Shown piece by piece: positions 3,910-62,473 of a DNA stretch of 64,000 nt; the first letter of the stretch is position 1; each line of letters opens with the position of its first letter. Under the pieces are notes generated by a model that worked only from the letters and a program-made list of their open reading frames with translations, did no database searches and had not been told where the DNA came from. This DNA comes from Halomicrobium urmianum. GTDB lineage: Archaea > Halobacteriota > Halobacteria > Halobacteriales > Haloarculaceae. A program made the translations under genes and the position numbers. Location of the stretch: positions 186,001 through 250,000 of the forward strand of contig NZ_CP084092.1 of the NCBI RefSeq assembly GCF_020217425.1, given 5' to 3'.

Positions 3910-4935
3910 ATGAGCGGCGCGAGCGACGACCGGCTGCCGGGCGTCCCAGATGCGGGCGCCGCCGACTTCGACGCGATGGTCGACGACGAGGCGTCCGATC
4001 CCCGGGAGGAGCTGTCGAAGACGGATCACGACACGGACCTGGGGATCGCCATGGCCGAGGACGCCAAGCGCGTCTCCCGTGGCGAGCTATCGGCCGAGGA
4101 GTACTGGCGCAAGTACGACGCGGCCGCGGAGGCCGAGTTCGGCGACGACTACCGGCAGACGCCCAACCCGGCCATCGACAGCCCCGACCAGACCATCGAG
4201 TCGGAGACGGCCGAGTCGCTGGGCTGCTCGGTCGGATCGATGGACTCGATCGCCTGCGAGTCCGCTGCCTCGGCGCCGACCGACGAGGACGGCGACGACT
4301 CCGACGAGCGCTGGGGGATGGTCATCGACCTCCAGAAGTGCGTCGGCTGCGACTCCTGTTCGGTCGCCTGCAAGGCCGAGAACCGGACGCCGCCGGGGGT
4401 CTCCTACAACGTCGTGATGGAGGAGGAACACGGCGAGTTCCCCGACGTCACGCGCACGAACGTCCCCCGTCCGTGCATGCAGTGCGAGAACCCGCCCTGC
4501 GTGCAGGTCTGCCCCGTCAGCGCGACCTACAAGATGGACAACGGCGTGGTCAACATCGACTACGACCGCTGTATCGGCTGCCGGTACTGCATGATCGCGT
4601 GCCCGTACGGCGCTCGGTACTTCGACTTCGGCGAGAACTACGACGACGAGGTCGACGGCGCCGGCGAGGTGACCAGCCCCGAGTACGGCGTCGACCGTGG
4701 CCCGCGCGAGGACGGCGCCTCGCCGGTGGGTAACGTCAGGAAGTGCAGCTTCTGCACGCACCGCCTGGAACGCGGGGAGGAGCCGGCCTGCGTCGAGACC
4801 TGCGTTGGCGACGCCCGGAACATGGGCGACCTCGACGACCCCGACAGCGAGGTCTCGGAGATGGCCGACTCCTCGCGGGCGTTCCAGCTCAAGGAGGACG
4901 AGGGCACCGACCCCAACGTCTACTACCTCAAGTGA
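3910..4935 (+). CDS. Four-cluster [4Fe-4S] ferredoxin subunit of a molybdopterin oxidoreductase (DmsB/PhsB/TtrB-like)
   Basis: A 341-aa iron-sulfur subunit that should pass electrons between the membrane anchor and the molybdenum subunit. Four Cys groups are visible: CVGCDSCSVACKAE, CMQCENPPCVQVCP, CIGCRYCMIACPYGAR and CSFCTHRLERGEEPACVETC, the usual set for four [4Fe-4S] clusters. The first 120 or so residues form an acidic extension without Cys, longer than in bacterial homologues, with no recognisable signal peptide. The ATG at 3910 (MSGASDDRL) is preferred to one five codons upstream. It is first in the operon; the next gene starts 2 nt after the stop. Confidence 0.9.
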   Translation: MSGASDDRLPGVPDAGAADFDAMVDDEASDPREELSKTDHDTDLGIAMAEDAKRVSRGELSAEEYWRKYDAAAEAEFGDDYRQTPNPAIDSPDQTIESETAESLGCSVGSMDSIACESAASAPTDEDGDDSDERWGMVIDLQKCVGCDSCSVACKAENRTPPGVSYNVVMEEEHGEFPDVTRTNVPRPCMQCENPPCVQVCPVSATYKMDNGVVNIDYDRCIGCRYCMIACPYGARYFDFGENYDDEVDGAGEVTSPEYGVDRGPREDGASPVGNVRKCSFCTHRLERGEEPACVETCVGDARNMGDLDDPDSEVSEMADSSRAFQLKEDEGTDPNVYYLK

Positions 4936-4937
4936 CC

Positions 4938-6206
4938 ATGGCAACCGAACACTCGCGGTTCGAGTTCGACCCCGGATTCGTCGACGACCGCCTCCGGGCT
5001 GCCTGGTACGCCGTCCTCGGCGTGCTGCTGCTGGTCGGCGGCGCGGCGACGTGGCTGCGGATCTCCGGGGGCATGCAGAGCACCAACCTCACGAGCACGA
5101 CCCCGTGGGGCGCGTGGGTCGCCTTCTACATCTACTTCGTCGGCCTCTCGGCCGGCGCGTTCCTCGTGAGTACGCTGGCCAACGTCTTCGGCGTCGCGGG
5201 GATGCACCGCATCGACCGCGACGCCCTGTTCGCGGCGATCGTCAGCATGCTGGTCGCGCTGCTGTTCGTCTGGACCGACCTCGGCCGGATGGACCGGATG
5301 TACCACCCGTTCATCTGGCGGCAGGTCACCTCCGCGCTCGCCTGGGAGGTCCACGCGTACGTCGCCTACATCGGGGTGCTGACGACCGAGCTGTACTTCT
5401 CGATGCGCTACGACCTCGCTCGGGTCGCCGAGCGCGGCTCAGGACTGCGGGCCAGGCTCAGCGGCCTCCTGACGCTGGGCCGGCGACAGACGACCGAGGC
5501 CTCCCGGGAGACCGACAGGACGTGGCTGAAGCGGGCCGGCATCCTCGGCATCCCGCTGGCCATCTTCATGGTCCACGGCGGTACGGGCGTGCTCTTCGCC
5601 GTCTCGAAGGCCCGCCCCTACTGGAACAGCGGCCTGTTCCCGGTGATCTTCATCGTCTCCGCCGTGCTCTCCGGGACGGCGCTGGTGATGATGCTGTACG
5701 TCCTCCGGACGCGGCTGTTCGACGGCGAGTCCGTCGACCCCGACCTGCTGGACCGGCTCGCCAAGCTGCTGGCGACGTTCGTCGTCGTCGACGTGGCGCT
5801 GACCGCCATCGAGGCGCTGATCGCCATCGTCAGCTTCCACCCCCACGTGGTCGAGACCTGGAACATCATCGCGTTCGGCGAGATGTCGTGGTCGTTCTGG
5901 TGGTTCATGGTCGGCCTCGGCTGGGTGTTCCCGCTCGTGATGCTCTCGAAGCGATCCTGGCGGCGCACCCCGTGGCTCATGGCGGTGGCCGGCCTCAGCG
6001 TCGTACTGGGGATCATCGCGGTCCGGTTCAACATCGTCGTCCCGCCCCAGATCCGCCCCGTGATGGAGGGGCTCCCGCACGGATCGTACTTCCCCTCCCT
6101 CGTGGAGTGGGCGACCAGCGCCGGCATGATCGCGGTCGGTCTGCTGGTGTACACGATCGGCGCGGAACTGCTTCCGCTGACGCCGCTCGACGGAGGTGAT
6201 CACTGA
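4938..6206 (+). CDS. NrfD/PsrC-family membrane subunit (quinone-interacting anchor)
   Basis: A 422-aa polytopic membrane protein with about nine or ten hydrophobic helices, such as AWYAVLGVLLLVGGAATWL, and the NrfD-type stretch TTPWGAWVAFYIYFVGLSAG. In known PSR/TTR/DMSO-type complexes this subunit binds quinol and exchanges electrons with the FeS subunit. It sits between the FeS and catalytic genes. Its stop overlaps the next ATG (TGATG at 6204-6208), and GGAGGTGATC just before that point is a strong ribosome site for the downstream gene, so the subunits are made together. Confidence 0.9.
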   Translation: MATEHSRFEFDPGFVDDRLRAAWYAVLGVLLLVGGAATWLRISGGMQSTNLTSTTPWGAWVAFYIYFVGLSAGAFLVSTLANVFGVAGMHRIDRDALFAAIVSMLVALLFVWTDLGRMDRMYHPFIWRQVTSALAWEVHAYVAYIGVLTTELYFSMRYDLARVAERGSGLRARLSGLLTLGRRQTTEASRETDRTWLKRAGILGIPLAIFMVHGGTGVLFAVSKARPYWNSGLFPVIFIVSAVLSGTALVMMLYVLRTRLFDGESVDPDLLDRLAKLLATFVVVDVALTAIEALIAIVSFHPHVVETWNIIAFGEMSWSFWWFMVGLGWVFPLVMLSKRSWRRTPWLMAVAGLSVVLGIIAVRFNIVVPPQIRPVMEGLPHGSYFPSLVEWATSAGMIAVGLLVYTIGAELLPLTPLDGGDH

Positions 6207-9200
6207 TGTCCACTGACAGCGATAGCTCGGACGCGGACGGATCGAACGGTGACGACGGGGCCACCCTCACCAGGCGCGACCTGGTGAAGGCGGTCGGCAG
6301 CGTCGGCCTGATCGGCGCGGCCAGCGCTGCCACCGTCGACGTCGACACCGAGGACCTCTGGACGGACGACGAGGCCCACTACGTCGGCGACGACTACGGC
6401 GAGTACGGCGCGAGCGACGTGATTCACACCACCTGCGGACAGTGCAACACCTTCTGTCCGATCAAGGTCCGCCTGTCCGACGAGAGCGCCAGCGGCGAGT
6501 ACAGCTCGCTGGTCCGCAAGCTCGCCGGCAACCCCTACTCGTTCCTGAACACGCAGCCGTTCTCGCAGGTGCCCTACGACAGCGATCCCGAGGACGTCGC
6601 GATGGGCGACGTCGAGGGGAGCGGCGACGTCGACGCCGACCGCTGGTCGCTGTCGGGCGGCCGGATCTGTCTGAAGGGCCAGGCTGGCATCCAGACGGCC
6701 TTCGACAGCTACCGGGTCCGCAAGCCGATGAAGCGAGTCGGCCCCCGCGGCTCCGGGGAGTGGAAGACCATCTCCTGGGAGCAGGCGATCGAGGAGATCG
6801 CCGAGGGGGACGACGAACTCGGCCACCCCGGCCTGCGCGAGCTGTGGGCCTACGCGCCCGAGGACGAAGTGATGGACGACTGGGAGGCCGTCCAGTCCGG
6901 CGAGATGGACAGGTCGGCCTTCGACGAGAAGTGGGGCGACGCGCTCATCGACACCGACCACCCCGACCTCGGACCGAAGGCCAACCAGATCGTCGACGTC
7001 GGCGGGTTCCGGCGCAACTTCATCAGGACTCGCCTGTGGCACCAGGGACTCGGTTCGATCAACAGCGTCCACCACGCCGGGACCTGCGGGTTCTCCAGCG
7101 TCATGGGGAATGTCCGCTCGCACGCGGCCCAGAAGAAGCGCCAGTATCCCGACGTGGAGAACTGCGAGTACCTGCTGGTGTGGGGGACCAACCCCATGGT
7201 CGCCAACAAGGGGCCGACCTGGCTCGCCCCGAAGCTGACCAACGCCATCGAGGACGGCATGCGGATGGACGTGGTCGACCCGCGCCTGTCGAAGACCGCC
7301 GAGAAGGCCGACACCTGGGTCCCGGTCGAGCCCGGCGCGGACGGCGCGCTCGCGCTCGGGATGGCGCGCTGGATCATCGAGCGCGACCGCCACGACGTCG
7401 AGTACCTCCGCAATCCCGCGGCGACCGCCGCCGAGAGCGAGGGCGAACCCACGTGGAGCGACGCGACCCACCTCGTGCTCGTCGACGAGGAGTCGGGCCC
7501 CAAGGCGCGCGCCGCCGACCTCGGCCTCGTCCCCGAAGACCACGATCTGGCCGACGACTTCGTCGCCGTCGACGCGTCGACCGGCGAGCCGCGGCCGGCC
7601 AGCGAGGTCGAGACCGGCGTCCTTGACGTGTCGCTGACCGTCGACGGGACCGCCGTCGAGAGCGTCTGGAGCCTGTACCGCGACCGGGTGTTCGAGCACA
7701 CCGTCGAGGAGTACGCCGATACGGCCGGTGTCTCGGCCGACCGGATCGCCGAGATCGCCGACGAGTTCACCAGCCACGGCAAGCGGGCGGCGATCATGGC
7801 CTACCGCGGCCCGGCGAAACACACCAACGGGTTCTACAACACCCGCGCCATCGCGACGCTGCAGCACCTCATCGGCAACTACGACTGGAAGGGCGGGCAG
7901 ATCACCCCCTACGCCGGCTACAGCACGATGTCCGGCCGCTACGAGCTCGGGCAGGTCCCCGACGGCCACTCGCCGTGGGGGATCCCGCTGCTGCGCGGCG
8001 GGGTCAACTACGAGGACACCACGCTGTTCGAGCGCGACGACGGGTACCCCGCGAAGCGGCCCTGGTTCCCCGTCGCGCCGCCGCAGGCCACCCAGGAGCT
8101 GTACGGCAGCGCCGCAGACGAGTACCCCTACGGCGTCGAGGCGCTGTTCATCCGGCCGTACTCGAACAACCACGTGATGGCCGTCGCCGGCGGCGACCAG
8201 ATCCCCGACGTCATCGGCGACCCCGACGCGATCCCGCTGGTCGTCGCCTCCGACACCGTGATCGGCGAGACGAGCAAGTACGCCGACTACATCCTCCCTG
8301 AGCCGACCTACCTCGAGCGCTGGGAGAATTTCGGCACGTACCCGAACAAGCGGCTGGCCGACGAGAAGATCAGCCAGCCGGCGGTCGAGGTGGTCCCCGA
8401 CGCGCGGCCGTTCGAGGAGGTCCTGATCGACCTCTGGACGGAGCTGGACCTCCCCGGCGTCGGCGAGGACGCGATCCCCGACGCGGACGGGGAGCTGTGG
8501 CCGCTCGAGCGGGCCGAGGACTTCTACCTGAAGCTCGCGGCGAACATGGCCTACGACCGCGATCCCGTCCCCGACGCGAGCGAGGACGAACTGCGGGTCT
8601 TCCGCGAGAGTCACGAGAAAGGGCTTGGCGACTCCTTCGACATCGACCGCTGGAAGCGGGCCGTCAGCGACGAGGAGTGGGCGAAGGTCGTCACCGTGCT
8701 CAACCGCGGCGGCCGCTTCGAGGAGCCCGTCGACGACTACGCCGACCGGTTCGCCGAGCACGGCCACGAGTACGACTACGCCGAGCGCTTCGACGACAGC
8801 AACGCCTACGACGGCGACCAGATGCGCTACAAGCTTGGCTCGCGCGTGGACTTCTACAGCGAGGTCGTGCCGAAGGGGAAACACTCCTACACCGGCGAGC
8901 GGTTCGACCCGCTCCCGCGGGTCGACGACGTCGAGCACTACGGTGGCGCCGTCCAGGCACCAGTCACCGACGACGGCGACCCCGAGCGCCCCCTGCGGCT
9001 GATCAACTGGAAGCCCCGGACCCAGGGGATGCACCGGACCACGAACAGCCCGTGGCTCCGGGAGACCAGGCCCCAGAACCCGCTGTGGATCAACCCGCGC
9101 GACGCCGAGGAGCGCGGCGTCGAGAACGGCGACGAGGTCGTCATCGACGCCGGCCGGCGCACCGTCGAGGGCGTCGCGATGGTCACGAACGGCATCCGCC

Positions 9201-9487
9201 CCGGCGTCGTCGGCGCCATGTGGGGCTGGGGTCGGTCCGGCGACGGCGCGGTCGAAGAGACGGTCGACGGCGAGACCCGCGGCCCGGTCGAGGACGACGG
9301 ACACACGCCCTACCAGTTCGACGAGCCGATGACCGAGGACGCCGGACTGGCGAAGGGCCGCGACGCCGGGTTCGCGATCAACCACCTCCAGCCGCTGGAC
9401 GAGGACCTCGGCGACACCGGTCTCTCGGACCTCGTCGGCGGGAGCAACGCCCAGTACGACGCCTTCGTCGAGGTCGAACGGAAGTGA
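6206..9487 (+). CDS. Molybdopterin oxidoreductase catalytic subunit, polysulfide/thiosulfate/tetrathionate reductase-like
   Basis: A 1093-aa catalytic subunit. A twin-arginine signal (TRRDLVKAVGSVGLIGAAS, about residues 22-40) predicts folded export by Tat. The N-terminal [4Fe-4S] site is CGQCNTFC (C77, C80, C84) with C155 in GGRICLKG. A Cys at about 294 in HAGTCGFSS is the likely molybdenum ligand. The C-terminal molybdopterin-dinucleotide domain is clear (LWINPRDAEERGVENGDEVV). Its length of over 1000 aa and gene order (FeS, NrfD, catalytic, TorD) fit TtrA/PhsA/PsrA-like or related respiratory reductases better than DmsA, but the substrate cannot be read from sequence. Arsenate or another oxyanion remains possible. 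Confidence 0.88.
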   Translation: MSTDSDSSDADGSNGDDGATLTRRDLVKAVGSVGLIGAASAATVDVDTEDLWTDDEAHYVGDDYGEYGASDVIHTTCGQCNTFCPIKVRLSDESASGEYSSLVRKLAGNPYSFLNTQPFSQVPYDSDPEDVAMGDVEGSGDVDADRWSLSGGRICLKGQAGIQTAFDSYRVRKPMKRVGPRGSGEWKTISWEQAIEEIAEGDDELGHPGLRELWAYAPEDEVMDDWEAVQSGEMDRSAFDEKWGDALIDTDHPDLGPKANQIVDVGGFRRNFIRTRLWHQGLGSINSVHHAGTCGFSSVMGNVRSHAAQKKRQYPDVENCEYLLVWGTNPMVANKGPTWLAPKLTNAIEDGMRMDVVDPRLSKTAEKADTWVPVEPGADGALALGMARWIIERDRHDVEYLRNPAATAAESEGEPTWSDATHLVLVDEESGPKARAADLGLVPEDHDLADDFVAVDASTGEPRPASEVETGVLDVSLTVDGTAVESVWSLYRDRVFEHTVEEYADTAGVSADRIAEIADEFTSHGKRAAIMAYRGPAKHTNGFYNTRAIATLQHLIGNYDWKGGQITPYAGYSTMSGRYELGQVPDGHSPWGIPLLRGGVNYEDTTLFERDDGYPAKRPWFPVAPPQATQELYGSAADEYPYGVEALFIRPYSNNHVMAVAGGDQIPDVIGDPDAIPLVVASDTVIGETSKYADYILPEPTYLERWENFGTYPNKRLADEKISQPAVEVVPDARPFEEVLIDLWTELDLPGVGEDAIPDADGELWPLERAEDFYLKLAANMAYDRDPVPDASEDELRVFRESHEKGLGDSFDIDRWKRAVSDEEWAKVVTVLNRGGRFEEPVDDYADRFAEHGHEYDYAERFDDSNAYDGDQMRYKLGSRVDFYSEVVPKGKHSYTGERFDPLPRVDDVEHYGGAVQAPVTDDGDPERPLRLINWKPRTQGMHRTTNSPWLRETRPQNPLWINPRDAEERGVENGDEVVIDAGRRTVEGVAMVTNGIRPGVVGAMWGWGRSGDGAVEETVDGETRGPVEDDGHTPYQFDEPMTEDAGLAKGRDAGFAINHLQPLDEDLGDTGLSDLVGGSNAQYDAFVEVERK

Positions 9488-9492
9488 TCCCG

Positions 9493-10302
9493 ATGGACGA
9501 CGCCACCGCGCGCGAGATGGAGAGCGAGCCGGCGACCGACGACGGCGAGAGCGGGTCCGCCTCCGACGACGTCGAGAGCGCACCCGACGACGTCACGAGC
9601 GCGGCCGCGGGCGGCCCGGCCGGGGACGACGCCGACGCCGCCCGGGCGAGAGCGGCGGTGTACGGACTGCTCGCCGCGGCGTTCGACGGCGACCACGACG
9701 TGCTCGCGACCGCGCTCGGCGACGGTGCGCTGGCCGACCTCGCCGCCCGGTTCCCGGTCGACGCGGGCGACGAGGCGCTCGAACGCCCCGACCTCGACGC
9801 CGAGGGGCTCCGGATCGGCTACGACAACTTGTTCGTCGTCCCCGGTCCGCACTACGTCCCCCCGTTCGCGTCGGCCTGGGCCGACGACCCCAGCGAGTCC
9901 TTCGAGTCCGACTCGCCGTACCACGACGCCGGGGCGGCGGGCGAGCTGCTGGGCGACCCCGCCGCCGCGGCCGCGCGGTCCCACGGGGCCGTCGGCTTCG
10001 AACCCGAGCGCGGCGACGGCATCCCCGACCACCTCGCCGCCGAACTGGAGTTCATGCGCGCGCTCTGCGAGCGGGAGGCCGCCCTGCTCGCCGACGCAGG
10101 CGACGCCGCCGCCGAGCTCGCAGCGGTCCGCGAGCGCCAGCGGGAGACGGTCGGCCGCCTCGGCTGGCTCGATGCCTTCCACGAGGCCGTCGAGGCCGAG
10201 GACGCCGTCGAGGGCGTCTTCGCCGCGCTCGCCCGACTCGCCAGGACCTTCGTGGCCTGGGACGCACAGAGCGGAATCGCGGCTCCCGATAGCAGCAATT
10301 GA
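9493..10302 (+). CDS. TorD/DmsD-family molybdoenzyme maturation chaperone
   Basis: A 269-aa mostly helical protein. The first 55 residues are acidic and low-complexity; the rest matches the TorD fold (AARARAAVYGLLAAAF, then YDNLFVVPGPHYVPPFASAW, then HLAAELEFMRALCEREAALL). Proteins of this family bind the Tat signal of the partner apoenzyme and hold it until cofactor is loaded, which fits its place five bases after the catalytic gene. The stop codon TGA at 10300-10302 lies inside the left arm of an 86-nt palindromic repeat, so the repeat may have set the protein's end. Confidence 0.85.
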   Translation: MDDATAREMESEPATDDGESGSASDDVESAPDDVTSAAAGGPAGDDADAARARAAVYGLLAAAFDGDHDVLATALGDGALADLAARFPVDAGDEALERPDLDAEGLRIGYDNLFVVPGPHYVPPFASAWADDPSESFESDSPYHDAGAAGELLGDPAAAAARSHGAVGFEPERGDGIPDHLAAELEFMRALCEREAALLADAGDAAAELAAVRERQRETVGRLGWLDAFHEAVEAEDAVEGVFAALARLARTFVAWDAQSGIAAPDSSN

Positions 10303-10438: not shown

Positions 10439-10690
10439 ATGGCCGACGCGGACGGAAGCACCGAGTCGACGCGGTCGTACCGGACGCTGCTCGGACTGGG
10501 CGGCGCGCTGAGCCTCTGCTGTCTCGTCGCGGCCCCGGCGGCGACCGGCGCGGCCGGGGCCGTCGGTGGCGGCGGCGCCGCCGCTGCTCTCGGCGGGAGC
10601 CTGGTTCAGGTTCTCGCGACGGCCGCGGCCGTCGGGTTCCTGGCCGCCCTCATCCGGTTCCGGACCGGCGACGAGAGCTGCGACGTGTGA
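10439..10690 (+). CDS. Small two-helix membrane protein with paired cysteines, function unknown
   Basis: An 83-aa protein starting MADADGSTESTRSY. It has a first hydrophobic segment containing adjacent cysteines (GALSLCCLVAAPA), a Gly/Ala-rich linker and a second segment (LVQVLATAAAVGFLAALI), ending in DESCDV. I do not recognise a family with certainty. Short membrane proteins with Cys pairs in the first helix include MerT/MerF-type metal carriers, but the usual extra motifs are absent. It precedes two minus-strand membrane proteins that also carry Cys-x-x-Cys motifs and a DsbA-like protein, so a shared thiol or metal task is possible. An in-frame GTG at 10388 is an alternative start. Confidence 0.55.
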   Translation: MADADGSTESTRSYRTLLGLGGALSLCCLVAAPAATGAAGAVGGGGAAAALGGSLVQVLATAAAVGFLAALIRFRTGDESCDV

Positions 10691-10699
10691 GTCCGACCG

Positions 10700-11119
10700 T
10701 CAGCGCCCACACGCCTCGCAGCGCCGCCGCTGGTAGTAGAGCAGTCCGCCGAAGGCGACGACGCTGACCGCCCCCAGAACCGGCCGCAGCGGGTCGAAGT
10801 AGGTCATCAGCGCCGACGAGCCGAACAGCGCCAGCAGCGCGACGTTACAGATCGGGCAGCCGAACGCCAGGAACCCGCCGACGACGCCGCCGGCCGCGTA
10901 GCGGTCCCCGATCGGGTCGTCGGTCAGCGACCGCTGGTAGACGAAGGCGGCGGCGAACGCCGCCGTAGCGACGAGAAACAGGTAGTCCGCGGGCGTGCGC
11001 TCCACCATGCGAACGTAGACGGGGTTCGGGAGCAGTCCGGTCACGACCCCGAACAGCAGGAAGCTGCCGACGCCGACGCCGACGCTCCTGACGAGCCGCG
11101 GGCGCGTGAGGTCCGTCAC
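10700..11119 (-). CDS. Small membrane protein with intramembrane GCPICN motif
   Basis: A 139-aa protein with four predicted hydrophobic segments. The third begins with GGFLAFGCPICNVALLALFG, placing a Cys-x-x-Cys at a membrane edge; the tail YQRRRCEACGR carries a second Cys-x-x-Cys. The GTG start at 11119 is supported by GGAGGTGA seven bases upstream. The central part resembles the neighbouring protein at 11211-11750 (GLLAAGCASCGAGVLGALG), so the two look like distant paralogues. It is the last gene of a minus-strand group led by a thioredoxin-fold protein. Thiol-disulfide or metal transfer across the membrane is a reasonable guess; no function is established by the sequence. Confidence 0.65.
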   Translation of the reverse strand: MTDLTRPRLVRSVGVGVGSFLLFGVVTGLLPNPVYVRMVERTPADYLFLVATAAFAAAFVYQRSLTDDPIGDRYAAGGVVGGFLAFGCPICNVALLALFGSSALMTYFDPLRPVLGAVSVVAFGGLLYYQRRRCEACGR

Positions 11120-11210
11120 CGGCTCACCTCCCGTCGCCGAGCGGTGTTCGTTCGACTACCCGATGCCATCCGCGTCTCGGTCGTCCGTCGTCGACCGTTC
11201 CGTCGCATGG

Positions 11211-11750
11211 TCACGTCGGATCGATCGCACAGGTCCGCGGGTCGCCCGTCCGCCCGAGGAAGACGGCGAGGAGCGCGATGCCGCCGATCCGGAGCAGGTT
11301 CCCCTCGAACGGGAGGGCCGCCATCGCGCCGACGAAGCCCAGCGCGCCGAGCACACCCGCGCCGCAGCTCGCACAGCCGGCAGCGAGCAGGCCCGGGACG
11401 ATCCCGGCGAGCGTGGACGCACCAGCGCGGCGGGCGCGCCGCACGAGCGCGACGGCGTCCGTCACGGCGACGCCCGTCAGGAGCGCGTAGGCGGCGACGA
11501 GTCCGATACCCAGCCAGCCGGTCCCGAGGTACACCTCCCGCGTGAGCGCCGGCACGGCGTAGGCGAGGTCGGTCGGGTCCCGCGTGAGCACCTGTACGGA
11601 GAACTGCGGAAACGAGCTCAGGACCAGGACGACGTACGTCACGCCCGTCGCGACGCCGGCGGTCAGCAACCGCCCGTTCGACGTGAGCGGATACGCGAGC
11701 GCGTCGCGGAGGTCGCGGAGCCACGCCCGGTGCACTGCCGTCCCGGTCAT
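11211..11750 (-). CDS. Membrane protein with intramembrane GCASCGAG motif, partner of a thioredoxin-fold protein
   Basis: A 179-aa protein with about five hydrophobic segments; one starts GLLAAGCASCGAGVLGALGFVG, and a further Cys sits in GDPRTCAID near the C terminus. Its ATG overlaps the stop of the upstream thioredoxin-fold gene (ATGA at 11747-11750), so the two are very probably co-translated. A periplasmic-side thioredoxin needs a membrane partner to recycle its cysteines; this protein could be that partner (a DsbB/CcdA analogue), but it shows no DsbB, VKOR or CcdA signature that I can see. Confidence 0.7.
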   Translation of the reverse strand: MTGTAVHRAWLRDLRDALAYPLTSNGRLLTAGVATGVTYVVLVLSSFPQFSVQVLTRDPTDLAYAVPALTREVYLGTGWLGIGLVAAYALLTGVAVTDAVALVRRARRAGASTLAGIVPGLLAAGCASCGAGVLGALGFVGAMAALPFEGNLLRIGGIALLAVFLGRTGDPRTCAIDPT

Positions 11751-12484
11751 GCCTCGCTGATCTGATCGAGCGCGTCGGCGAAGTTGTCGTAGGGGTGTGC
11801 GCCGACGAGCTTGCCGGCAGCGTCGCTCTCGCGGTTGTAGAGCACGAATCCGGGGGTCCCCCGGATCCCGGCCGACTGCGCCGACGAGAGGTCGGCGTCG
11901 ACGGACTCCCGGATCGAATCGCCGCGCTCCTGCCGACAGGCGTCCACGGCGTCGAGGGGGACGTTCTCCGTCCGCTCGGTGACGCCGGTGAACGTCTCCT
12001 CGTCCGCCCAGTCTTGTCCCGACTCCGCCTGCTCGTCGAACGCCGCCTCGTGCCACCGCCAGAAGGCGGCCGGATCGTCCTCGGCGACCTGCTGCCAGAC
12101 GCAGCGACTCCAGACCGCCGCCGGCATGGAGTACTCGCCGATGTTGGGATACGAGAGGAAGACGAGCCGCGCCTCGCCGGTGTCGACGTAGTCGCGACCG
12201 ACGTCCGGGAGCGTCTCCGTCTCGAACTGCTTGCAGAACGGGCACAGGTAGTCCGTCCAGTAGTAGACGTCGACCGGGGCGTCTGACTCGCCGGCGATCG
12301 GTCGACCGGCGAGTTCCACCCCGAATCCCGTCGTCTCCTCGCTCGTGTGAAAGGTGTCGGGAACGTATCCCTGCTCGTCCGACCCGGAACGAGACGCGAA
12401 ATACGCGACGGAACCGCCGAGCGCGAGGGTTCCACCGCCGGCGACGAGCATTCGCCGCCTCGTAATATTGTTCTCCGTATCCAT
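11747..12484 (-). CDS. Extracytoplasmic thioredoxin-fold (DsbA/DsbG-like) protein
   Basis: A 245-aa protein with a twin-arginine-like leader (TRRRMLVAGGGTLALGG) and a thioredoxin fold. The active site is CPFC in YYWTDYLCPFCKQFE at about residue 80, and the cis-proline loop GIRGTPGFVLYN lies near residue 210. Relatives form or shuffle disulfides in exported proteins, or in haloarchaea sit near membrane respiratory enzymes. It opens a minus-strand set with two Cys-containing membrane proteins and is convergent with the molybdoenzyme operon, so it may mature exported redox enzymes. That link is inferred from position only. Confidence 0.85.
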   Translation of the reverse strand: MDTENNITRRRMLVAGGGTLALGGSVAYFASRSGSDEQGYVPDTFHTSEETTGFGVELAGRPIAGESDAPVDVYYWTDYLCPFCKQFETETLPDVGRDYVDTGEARLVFLSYPNIGEYSMPAAVWSRCVWQQVAEDDPAAFWRWHEAAFDEQAESGQDWADEETFTGVTERTENVPLDAVDACRQERGDSIRESVDADLSSAQSAGIRGTPGFVLYNRESDAAGKLVGAHPYDNFADALDQISEA

Positions 12485-12594: not shown

Positions 12595-13167
12595 ATGGGC
12601 CATCACACGTTCGACGCCGATCGGGCCGACAAACTCGAACGGGCCGAGCGGCGATATCGATTCCTCTCGGCCGAGGAACTGCTCTGGGCGCTCGACCTGT
12701 CACCGACGGACGCGGTCGCGGACCTCGGCAGCGGCACGGGGTTCTACACGGATGCCGTGGCGCCGCACGCGGGGACGGTGTACGCCGTCGACCTCCAGGA
12801 GGCGATGCACGACTACTACCGCGAGAAGGGCGTTCCCGAGAACGTCGAGCTCGTTACCACCGGGGTGGGCGACCTCCCGCTCGACGACGGGAGCCTCGAC
12901 GCCGCCTTCTCAACGATGACATACCACGAGTTCGCCAGCGACGACGCGCTCGACGAGATCCGCCGGGTGCTGGCACCGGCCGGCCGCCTCGTCGTCGTCG
13001 ACTGGGCCGCGACTGGGACCGGCGAGGAGGGGCCGCCGCTGGACGAGCGGTTCACGGCCGCGGAAGCGGCGGAGGCGCTGGCGGAGACCGGCTTCCGCAT
13101 CGAACACGAGGCCGTCCGTCCGGAGACCTTCCTGCTGGTCGCCGCGGTGGAGCAGGAGTCCGGCTGA
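12595..13167 (+). CDS. Class I SAM-dependent methyltransferase
   Basis: A 190-aa methyltransferase with motif I DLGSGTGFYTDAV (about residues 43-55), an acidic residue after the second strand in VYAVDLQEAM, and a motif IV-like stretch SLDAAFSTMTYHEF. It resembles the UbiE/Methyltransf_11 group of small-molecule methylases, but the substrate is not predictable. The gene stands alone between a divergent thioredoxin-fold gene and a convergent second methyltransferase. Confidence 0.82.
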   Translation: MGHHTFDADRADKLERAERRYRFLSAEELLWALDLSPTDAVADLGSGTGFYTDAVAPHAGTVYAVDLQEAMHDYYREKGVPENVELVTTGVGDLPLDDGSLDAAFSTMTYHEFASDDALDEIRRVLAPAGRLVVVDWAATGTGEEGPPLDERFTAAEAAEALAETGFRIEHEAVRPETFLLVAAVEQESG

Positions 13168-18889: not shown

Positions 18890-19333
18890 GTGATTATGCA
18901 GCTCGCGGTCGGCTGGTGGTTCTTGCGTGCAGGGCTTGACAAGTTCCTAGCATGGCCATTCGACGCGAGTTGGTTCGTCGGCGGCGCAACTGCCGGGACG
19001 AGTCTTGGCCCGGTCGTGACACCGTTCGCTGGGGATGCGGGACTGGCATTCGTCAACATCATGGTTCCACTCGGGCAGACGCTGATTGGACTGGGCCTCG
19101 TCCTCGGGGCGTTGACCCGGCTCGCCGCTTTCTTCGGTGCCTTCCTAATGTCGTTCTTCTACTTCATTAACGGCGAGACGGGTGGCTGGGCCCACGGCGT
19201 CGTCACAGGCGAGTTGCTCGGGCTGCTCATTTTTGCGATGATCGCCACGCTCGGAGCTGGTCGTGTGCTCGGTATCGACGCGTATTTCCACGAATGGACC
19301 TGTTCGAAGATAACACTAAACTACGGTGGCTGA
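18890..19333 (+). CDS. DoxX-family membrane protein, N-terminally shortened
   Basis: A 147-aa protein with four hydrophobic segments. It has the DoxX features AVGWWFLRAGLDKFLAWPF, MVPLGQTLIGLGLVLGAL, TRLAAFFGAFLMSFFYF and GRVLGIDA. Compared with the DoxX at 61940-62473 it lacks roughly the first 25 residues. An in-frame TAG just upstream (18870s) precedes LAYWLV, which looks like lost coding sequence, so translation may begin at GTG 18890 or ATG 18896. DoxX proteins are membrane partners in thiosulfate or thiol oxidation in some organisms; the role here is unknown. It is followed 20 bp later by a small membrane protein, as at 41.5-42.4 kb. Confidence 0.75.
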   Translation: MIMQLAVGWWFLRAGLDKFLAWPFDASWFVGGATAGTSLGPVVTPFAGDAGLAFVNIMVPLGQTLIGLGLVLGALTRLAAFFGAFLMSFFYFINGETGGWAHGVVTGELLGLLIFAMIATLGAGRVLGIDAYFHEWTCSKITLNYGG

Positions 19334-41843: not shown

Positions 41844-42368
41844 TCAGCCCAGCAGGTACCGCAGCCGCGGACGCTGTTTCACGAACTCCGTCTTCTCGAC
41901 GATGGCGTCGAGGCCGTAGTAGCGGCCGGTCGCCAGCACGATCATGGTCACGAACAGCAGCAGCCCCATCAGGTCGCTGTTGACCAGGCCGTGACCGAAT
42001 CCGGCGTTCCCGACCCAGAACAGGGTCATGAAGAAGACGCCGAACGCGGAGGCCAGCCTGACCAGGACGCCCAGCATCAGGCCGAGCCCGATGAGGGTCT
42101 CGCCCAGCGGGACCAGCGCCTGGATCGCCCAGCCCAGGTTCTCGCCCATCCACACCGGGATGGGGCCCAGCGCCGTGCCCGTCATCTCCTGGAGGTACAT
42201 CGGCCCGTAGCTGTACGCCAGCCCGTCCTCGATGAGCTTCGTCACGCCGGCGTGGAAGAACCACCAGCCGGTGATCACGCGCAACGTCGCCAGCCAGTAG
42301 GCCGCCCAGGCCCCGCCCAGCTCGACTTCGAAGTCTTCCGCCAGGGGGTTAACCGCTTGGTAGGACAT
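41844..42368 (-). CDS. DoxX-family membrane protein
   Basis: A 174-aa membrane protein with four helices. DoxX features are LRVITGWWFFHAGVTKL, LVPLGETLIGLGLMLGVLVRLA and the tail VEKTEFVKQRPRLRYLLG. A GAGGTGA ribosome site precedes the ATG at 42368, and GTTATAT (42408-42414, minus strand) is a TATA box. DoxX homologues take part in thiosulfate:quinone oxidation in Acidianus and in a thiol-oxidation membrane complex in mycobacteria. Here the partner is a small membrane protein. The third homologue at 61940 ends in the same RHPRLRYLLG motif. Confidence 0.85.
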   Translation of the reverse strand: MSYQAVNPLAEDFEVELGGAWAAYWLATLRVITGWWFFHAGVTKLIEDGLAYSYGPMYLQEMTGTALGPIPVWMGENLGWAIQALVPLGETLIGLGLMLGVLVRLASAFGVFFMTLFWVGNAGFGHGLVNSDLMGLLLFVTMIVLATGRYYGLDAIVEKTEFVKQRPRLRYLLG

Positions 42369-61939: not shown

Positions 61940-62473
61940 TTACCCGAGGAGGTACCGCAGCCGCGGGTGCCGGCGGACGAACGCGGTCCGCTCGAGGACG
62001 GCGTCGACGCCGAGGATCCGGCCCGCGGCGAAGGCGCCGACGATCACGAACGCGAGCAGCCCGAGCAGGTCGCCGTTGACGTACCCGTGCGCCCAGTCGG
62101 CGTTCCCGAGGTAGAACATGACCATCAGGAAGCCGCCGAAGAAGGCGGCCAGCCTGGTCATCGCCCCCAGGATGAGTCCCAGTCCGATGAGGAACTCGCC
62201 GAGCGGGATCATCACGTTGGTGAACTCGAGCAGCCAGGGCGTCCCCGCCACCGCGGCGAAGAAGCCCGCCAGCGGGCCCCCGGCGTTAGCCAGGAATCCC
62301 GCCGCGTCGAAGGGCTCGCCCGCGACGAACGCGAACTTGGTCCAGCCGGCGTGCAGGAACCAGTACCCGACGATCAGCCGGGTCAGCACCAGCACGTAGC
62401 CGGCCACGCCGTCCGCGTACTCGAAATCGCGTTCCTCACCGAGCAGCTCTATCGTGGGTTGATTAGTTGCCAT
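61940..62473 (-). CDS. DoxX-family membrane protein
   Basis: A 177-aa protein: MATNQPTIELLGEERDFEYA, four helices including LTRLIVGYWFLHAGWTKFAF, VMIPLGEFLIGLGLILGAM and MTRLAAFFGGFLMVMFYLG, and the conserved end VRRHPRLRYLLG. It is closest to 41844-42368 in the tail and to 18890-19333 in the middle. Unlike those two it has no small membrane partner next to it. Role unknown. Confidence 0.85.
   Translation of the reverse strand: MATNQPTIELLGEERDFEYADGVAGYVLVLTRLIVGYWFLHAGWTKFAFVAGEPFDAAGFLANAGGPLAGFFAAVAGTPWLLEFTNVMIPLGEFLIGLGLILGAMTRLAAFFGGFLMVMFYLGNADWAHGYVNGDLLGLLAFVIVGAFAAGRILGVDAVLERTAFVRRHPRLRYLLG

Follow-up and report, generated by a model that had tools for sequence, protein, structure and literature searches.

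Several described systems resemble the locus analyzed here. The bdbD-bdbC genes are the classic two-gene pair (PMC8945050), bacterial sulfur oxidation provides precedents in SoxS, the CcdA-type SoxV/SoxW and SoxT/TusA (PMC10451225, PMC11582611), and a plasmid module of Arthrobacter has been described as probably sulfur-related (PMC6305408). In comparison, thiol and sulfane-sulfur handling outside the haloarchaeal membrane is little described, and our literature searches met no paper on it, nor any description of the combination of proteins considered below. The window analyzed, a stretch of 64,000 nucleotides from the haloarchaeon Halomicrobium urmianum, contains a cassette of four genes (D, M2, M1 and S83), all as described in a first-pass annotation of this DNA, together with two neighbours that bear on its interpretation:

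D, 11747-12484, minus strand: 245 aa, exported DsbA/BdbD-like thioredoxin-fold protein with a CPFC active site and an invariant C128/C183 pair
M2, 11211-11750, minus strand: 179 aa, unnamed membrane protein with a CASC motif and a C-terminal Cys
M1, 10700-11119, minus strand: 139 aa, unnamed four-helix membrane protein with CPICN in TM3 and a C-terminal CxxC
S83, 10439-10690, plus strand: 83-aa two-helix membrane protein with an invariant CC and a C-terminal Cys
MT1, 12595-13167, plus strand: class I methyltransferase, a recurrent neighbour; context gene and candidate part of the cassette
Molybdoenzyme operon, 3910-10302: adjoins the cassette in the window

Like BdbD-BdbC and DsbA-DsbB, the BdbD-like D forms a two-gene unit with a small cysteine-bearing membrane protein, but M2 is unrelated to the haloarchaeal DsbB or VKOR profiles. 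With CcdA, DsbD and ScsB the locus shares a Cys pair at an intramembrane helix break and thioredoxin-fold neighbours, although neither M2 nor M1 aligns to CcdA. The haloarchaeal sulfur neighbourhood described below resembles the sulfane-sulfur cluster of Bacillus licheniformis (PMC9918477), the soxSRT-TusA arrangement and SoxV/SoxW (PMC10451225, PMC11582611), in the last two cases through the joint occurrence of an exported Dsb/thioredoxin-type protein, a membrane thiol carrier, a YeeE-type importer, TusA and a regulator. The membrane partners here are M1 and M2, which are not CcdA, and SoxXABYZ is not among the recurrent neighbours of the cassette, as judged from the neighbour list. The CYT module of the Arthrobacter plasmid (PMC6305408) likewise places a regulator, a DsbA family protein, CcdA and DsrE beside a sulfur module, and from the gene count its second "CcdA" would be M1; it differs in being bacterial, in having no M2, and in not treating M1 as a family of its own.

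The four proteins and their possible relatives

The stop codon of D overlaps the ATG of M2 (ATGA), which makes translational coupling of the two plausible, and M1 starts with GTG 91 nt past M2 on the same strand. The 3′ end of S83 converges on that of M1 in the window; in many other loci S83 lies directly after M1 on the same strand. D begins with a twin-arginine stretch read from the sequence as NITRRRML, and its four cysteines, C81 and C84 of CPFC plus C128 and C183, are invariant in the alignment. It scores 66 bits against Pfam PF13462 (cut-off 23.2) and 36.5 bits against PF01323 (cut-off 25.6), and its nearest solved relative in the PDB is BdbD (3eu3, E 6e-21); with these matches above cut-off, a CxxC and an export signal, D has the attributes of a DsbA/BdbD-like thioredoxin-fold protein. 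It does not belong to the Rcas_1661 family (NF041057), scoring 96 bits against the NCBIfam curated cut-off of 190 bits.

None of the three membrane proteins matches a Pfam or NCBIfam family above cut-off, in agreement with the earlier statement that no described family was known for this combination. M2 carries LLAAGCASCGAG at C126/C129 and a further cysteine, C174, all kept in more than 90% of the aligned sequences. In an AlphaFold2 model of M2 (pLDDT 79, pTM 0.75) the CxxC falls at a low-confidence break between half-helices; Foldseek found no fold match for this model among solved structures, and a PDB sequence search with M2 returned nothing. M1 has the motif GFLAFGCPICN at C88/C91 and CEAC at C134/C137, and S83 has CC at positions 27/28 plus C81, all of these cysteines being invariant in the respective alignments. 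The model of M1 (pLDDT 62) was of low confidence and too poor for a fold search, and its PDB sequence search gave only chance matches to a complex I subunit.

The layout G-x-L-A-x-G-C-x-x-C-x4-L that had been proposed as common to M1 and M2 was indeed found in both, and profile comparison gave E 0.0075 for M2 against M1 (hhalign E-values, here and below, refer to single pairs and not to a database search). For the remote M2 proteins introduced below, the corresponding values were E 2.4e-4 against M1 and, aligned round the CxxC, 88.9% and E 2.4e-6 against bacterial M1. The cysteines are conserved beyond what chance would give, and these comparisons lend the resemblance of M1 and M2 weak support. 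Comparisons proposed in the first-pass annotation were run in the same manner, and neither M2 nor M1 gave any alignment to haloarchaeal DsbB, VKOR or CcdA profiles. A likeness to MerT was seen for one protein only: the TM3-TM4 hairpin of M1, with its Cys pair and a P-x-x-P loop, aligns with TM1-TM2 of MerT (94.9%, single-pair E 4.2e-8). Unlike MerT, M1 has two extra N-terminal helices and CPxCN in place of CC, and it remains below the Pfam PF02411 (MerT) cut-off (best 18.1 bits versus 32.9). M2 did not align to MerT at all, and S83 was rejected as a MerT because it showed no alignment beyond the CC.

Conservation of the neighbourhood

When the M2 alignment was used to scan 84,980 species genomes, 64 loci came out, all of them haloarchaeal, and none outside haloarchaea. 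A profile search placed M2, in some cases in remote form, in 17 of 295 genomes of the phylum. Neighbours within 10 kb were compared with 36 control stretches of 20 kb, taken at arbitrary places in further genomes from the same order; because the controls are arbitrary and the loci related to each other, p-values from these counts are only indicative. D lay near M2 in 62/64 loci, M1 in 38/64 and S83 in 21/64, each against 0/36 in controls, so that the genes, whose joint retention the first-pass annotation had left to be checked, are kept together in haloarchaea. D was directly upstream of M2 on the same strand in 41 loci, and in another 19 it lay divergently no more than 4 kb away. M1, itself found in 36 of the 146 genomes from this order, was directly downstream in 26 of its 38 loci. 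A match to MT1 occurred in 24/64 loci (controls 2/36), with copies mostly 67–80% identical.

Remote M2 proteins, with the motifs CAACG and a C-terminal GCPV, turned up at E 0.001 in 48 of the 145 genomes from the class; by our own count, 33 of these are strong matches. Profile comparison places them in the same family as M2 (99.4%, E 4.7e-21), and the three cysteines of M2 are kept. In the 30 remote loci that were read with 1.5 kb flanks, a DsbA-like gene adjoined remote M2 on the same strand in all 30. The partnership of D and M2 is well supported, and since the pairing holds in two divergent groups of M2, a direct redox partnership is likely.

The recurrent haloarchaeal neighbours were TusA, DsrE, DUF302, a rhodanese-MBL protein, half-size YeeE, TauE, CoADR and thioredoxin, a set enriched over the control stretches. 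Near M2, TrxA was present in 28/64 loci (controls 2/36), the rhodanese-MBL protein in 29/64 (2/36), and DUF302, TusA and DsrE in 20, 15 and 13 of the 64, respectively, with none in controls. A CcdA homologue was likewise found in 13/64 loci versus 0/36: this neighbour of the cassette in other genomes, of 300 aa and with the Cys motifs FAPC..LP and ACNLP, is below the Pfam cut-off for CcdA but was identified as a homologue by profile (99.7%, E 6e-26).

M1 extends beyond archaea. A plasmid search recovered homologues annotated as hypothetical proteins in Actinomycetota, Alphaproteobacteria and Thermomicrobiota, which match M1 over the whole protein (99.9%, E 1e-34), with R37, C88, P89, C91, N92 and P110 invariant across domains. 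Among 17 annotated plasmid loci, a non-random sample of which 4–5 kb was read, a DsbA/TlpA-type protein was near M1 in 11 and CcdA/DsbD in seven. In Arthrobacter and Pseudonocardia the abutting order is DsbA-like, CcdA, M1, and in Mycolicibacterium M1 abuts TlpA. Azospirillum has DsbD, DsbA and M1 followed by DUF2892, a sulfurtransferase and an MBL protein; Streptomyces NBC_01197 has M1, thioredoxin, CcdA, rhodanese and TauE; and Rhodococcus erythropolis, with a methyltransferase, DsrE, CcdA, thioredoxin, M1 and DUF302, has nearly the haloarchaeal set. No mer genes were seen among the recurrent or annotated neighbours of M1.

Further copies were observed in the genome of the window. A third D-M2 pair lies on the main contig (locus L227, 7338-8617; G000:C1:1072104), its M2 carrying GCAGCGAG and reported with one in-frame TGA. 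A second M2-M1 copy without D (L036, 7559-8487; G000:C2, about 369058-369989) has lost the first motif cysteine of M2 (GRASC) and its C-terminal part, and on the same contig a decayed M2 fragment lies beside an intact-looking CcdA-like gene (L228, 8328-9575). Solitary M1 proteins in five loci (L061, L065, L066, L067 and L068) have no C-terminal CxxC and instead a CxGDxC just before TM3, which looks like a displacement of the second Cys pair along the same side.

A candidate thiol relay and its rivals

A DsbA-like enzyme kept beside membrane proteins with Cys pairs, often with sulfur genes, suggests an undescribed thiol/sulfur membrane partner, and the unnamed thiol relay proposed in the first-pass annotation gains support from the conserved gene linkage together with the lack of a family match. 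We consider it about evenly balanced whether D, M2 and M1 make up, together with S83 and sometimes the CcdA homologue, an outward thiol relay, probably for sulfane-sulfur chemistry. The observed basis is the gene pairing, the conservation of cysteines and the sulfur-gene neighbourhood; from these we infer thiol exchange of D with M2 or M1, the membrane orientation, the electron direction and the sulfur substrate. D would be the exported carrier and M2 its dedicated membrane redox partner, the mid-membrane CxxC and C-terminal cysteine of M2 exchanging electrons with CPFC of D, while M1, whose second Cys pair is predicted to face the cytosol, could serve as an additional or alternative route. 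Electrons would most likely flow in the reductive sense, from cytosolic thioredoxin to the outside, where the relay may reduce or carry persulfide or sulfane-sulfur species as SoxS or SoxW-SoxV do, and sulfur may enter via YeeE/PmpAB-like carriers to TusA, DsrE and rhodanese. This outward reductive relay is favoured because thioredoxin, CcdA and sulfur genes neighbour the cassette, but the share of loci with a given sulfur gene within 10 kb is only a fifth to less than half, in counts to which related genomes do not contribute independently, 51/64 haloarchaeal loci have no CcdA within 10 kb, M1 is often solitary in unrelated surroundings, and the twin-arginine and thioredoxin-fold features of D do not fix a redox direction.

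Alternatively, M2 could be a DsbB/BdbC-like oxidant that passes electrons from D to quinone, D-M2 then forming disulfides in exported proteins as a BdbDC analogue of new sequence. The kinship of D with BdbD, a member of the classic pair, and the constancy of the remote two-gene unit are consistent with this, but we regard it as unlikely: M2 has neither a sequence relation to DsbB or VKOR nor a fold match, the genes that recur around it are those for CcdA, thioredoxin and sulfur proteins, and DsbB is already encoded in the window's genome. A reading in which M2 makes up for a missing DsbB was dropped, since 61/145 genomes, among them that of the window, encode DsbB (VKOR: 29/145); by our own count, the same draw of genomes assumed, DsbB was in fact commoner with remote M2 (21/33 versus 40/112). 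Handling of soft metals (Hg/Cu), with M1 and S83 binding or moving the metal like MerT and D protecting or loading thiols, for which ScsBC-type copper tolerance offers the comparison, seems rather improbable. A metal role is kept in play because of the MerT-like hairpin of M1, whose resemblance to a metal mover also counts against a thiol/sulfur relay, and because heavy-metal ATPases or copper genes are near some bacterial copies; the CC of S83 also fits. Weighing against it are the failure of S83 and M2 to follow M1 in the MerT alignment, the direct bacterial neighbours, more often DsbA/TlpA/CcdA than metal genes in the loci read, and the haloarchaeal neighbour clustering, in which no metal gene family recurred. 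That the relay serves to mature or protect the respiratory molybdoenzyme encoded next to it, as the first reading of this DNA had suggested, is very hard to credit. The operon adjoins the cassette in the window, the same operon with a Bat-type regulator recurs 3–10 kb away in Halorientalis marina (where its distance is 3–8 kb) and, in part, in Halobiforma haloterrestris, and a different operon (TorD/NrfD/FeS/Mo) is ~4 kb from the degenerate M2-M1 copy in the window's own genome; however, the linkage was found in 2/64 loci, a frequency that the control stretches (1–2/36) match, and was rejected.

We give somewhat less than even weight to a tentative proposal in which M2 adds one more class of membrane redox partner of DsbA-like proteins, unrelated to DsbB, VKOR and CcdA/DsbD and restricted to haloarchaea, and in which M1 is its relative across domains, based on a Cys hairpin like that of MerT. 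Should M2 exchange electrons with D, it would be a new solution for carrying reducing or oxidising power through a membrane. Together with its own unnamed partner in the membrane, the DsbA-like protein makes up a small, testable two-gene unit, and through the bacterial link of M1 it may be tested in tractable bacteria as well.

A TrmB-like regulator (HTHf12; for example L042, 10919-11338) was near M2 in 26/64 loci and carries, close to its N terminus, two cysteines that are almost invariant; it is possibly a thiol or sulfane-sulfur sensor. Elsewhere in the window, three proteins (18896-19333, 41844-42368 and 61940-62473) may by eye be DoxX-like.
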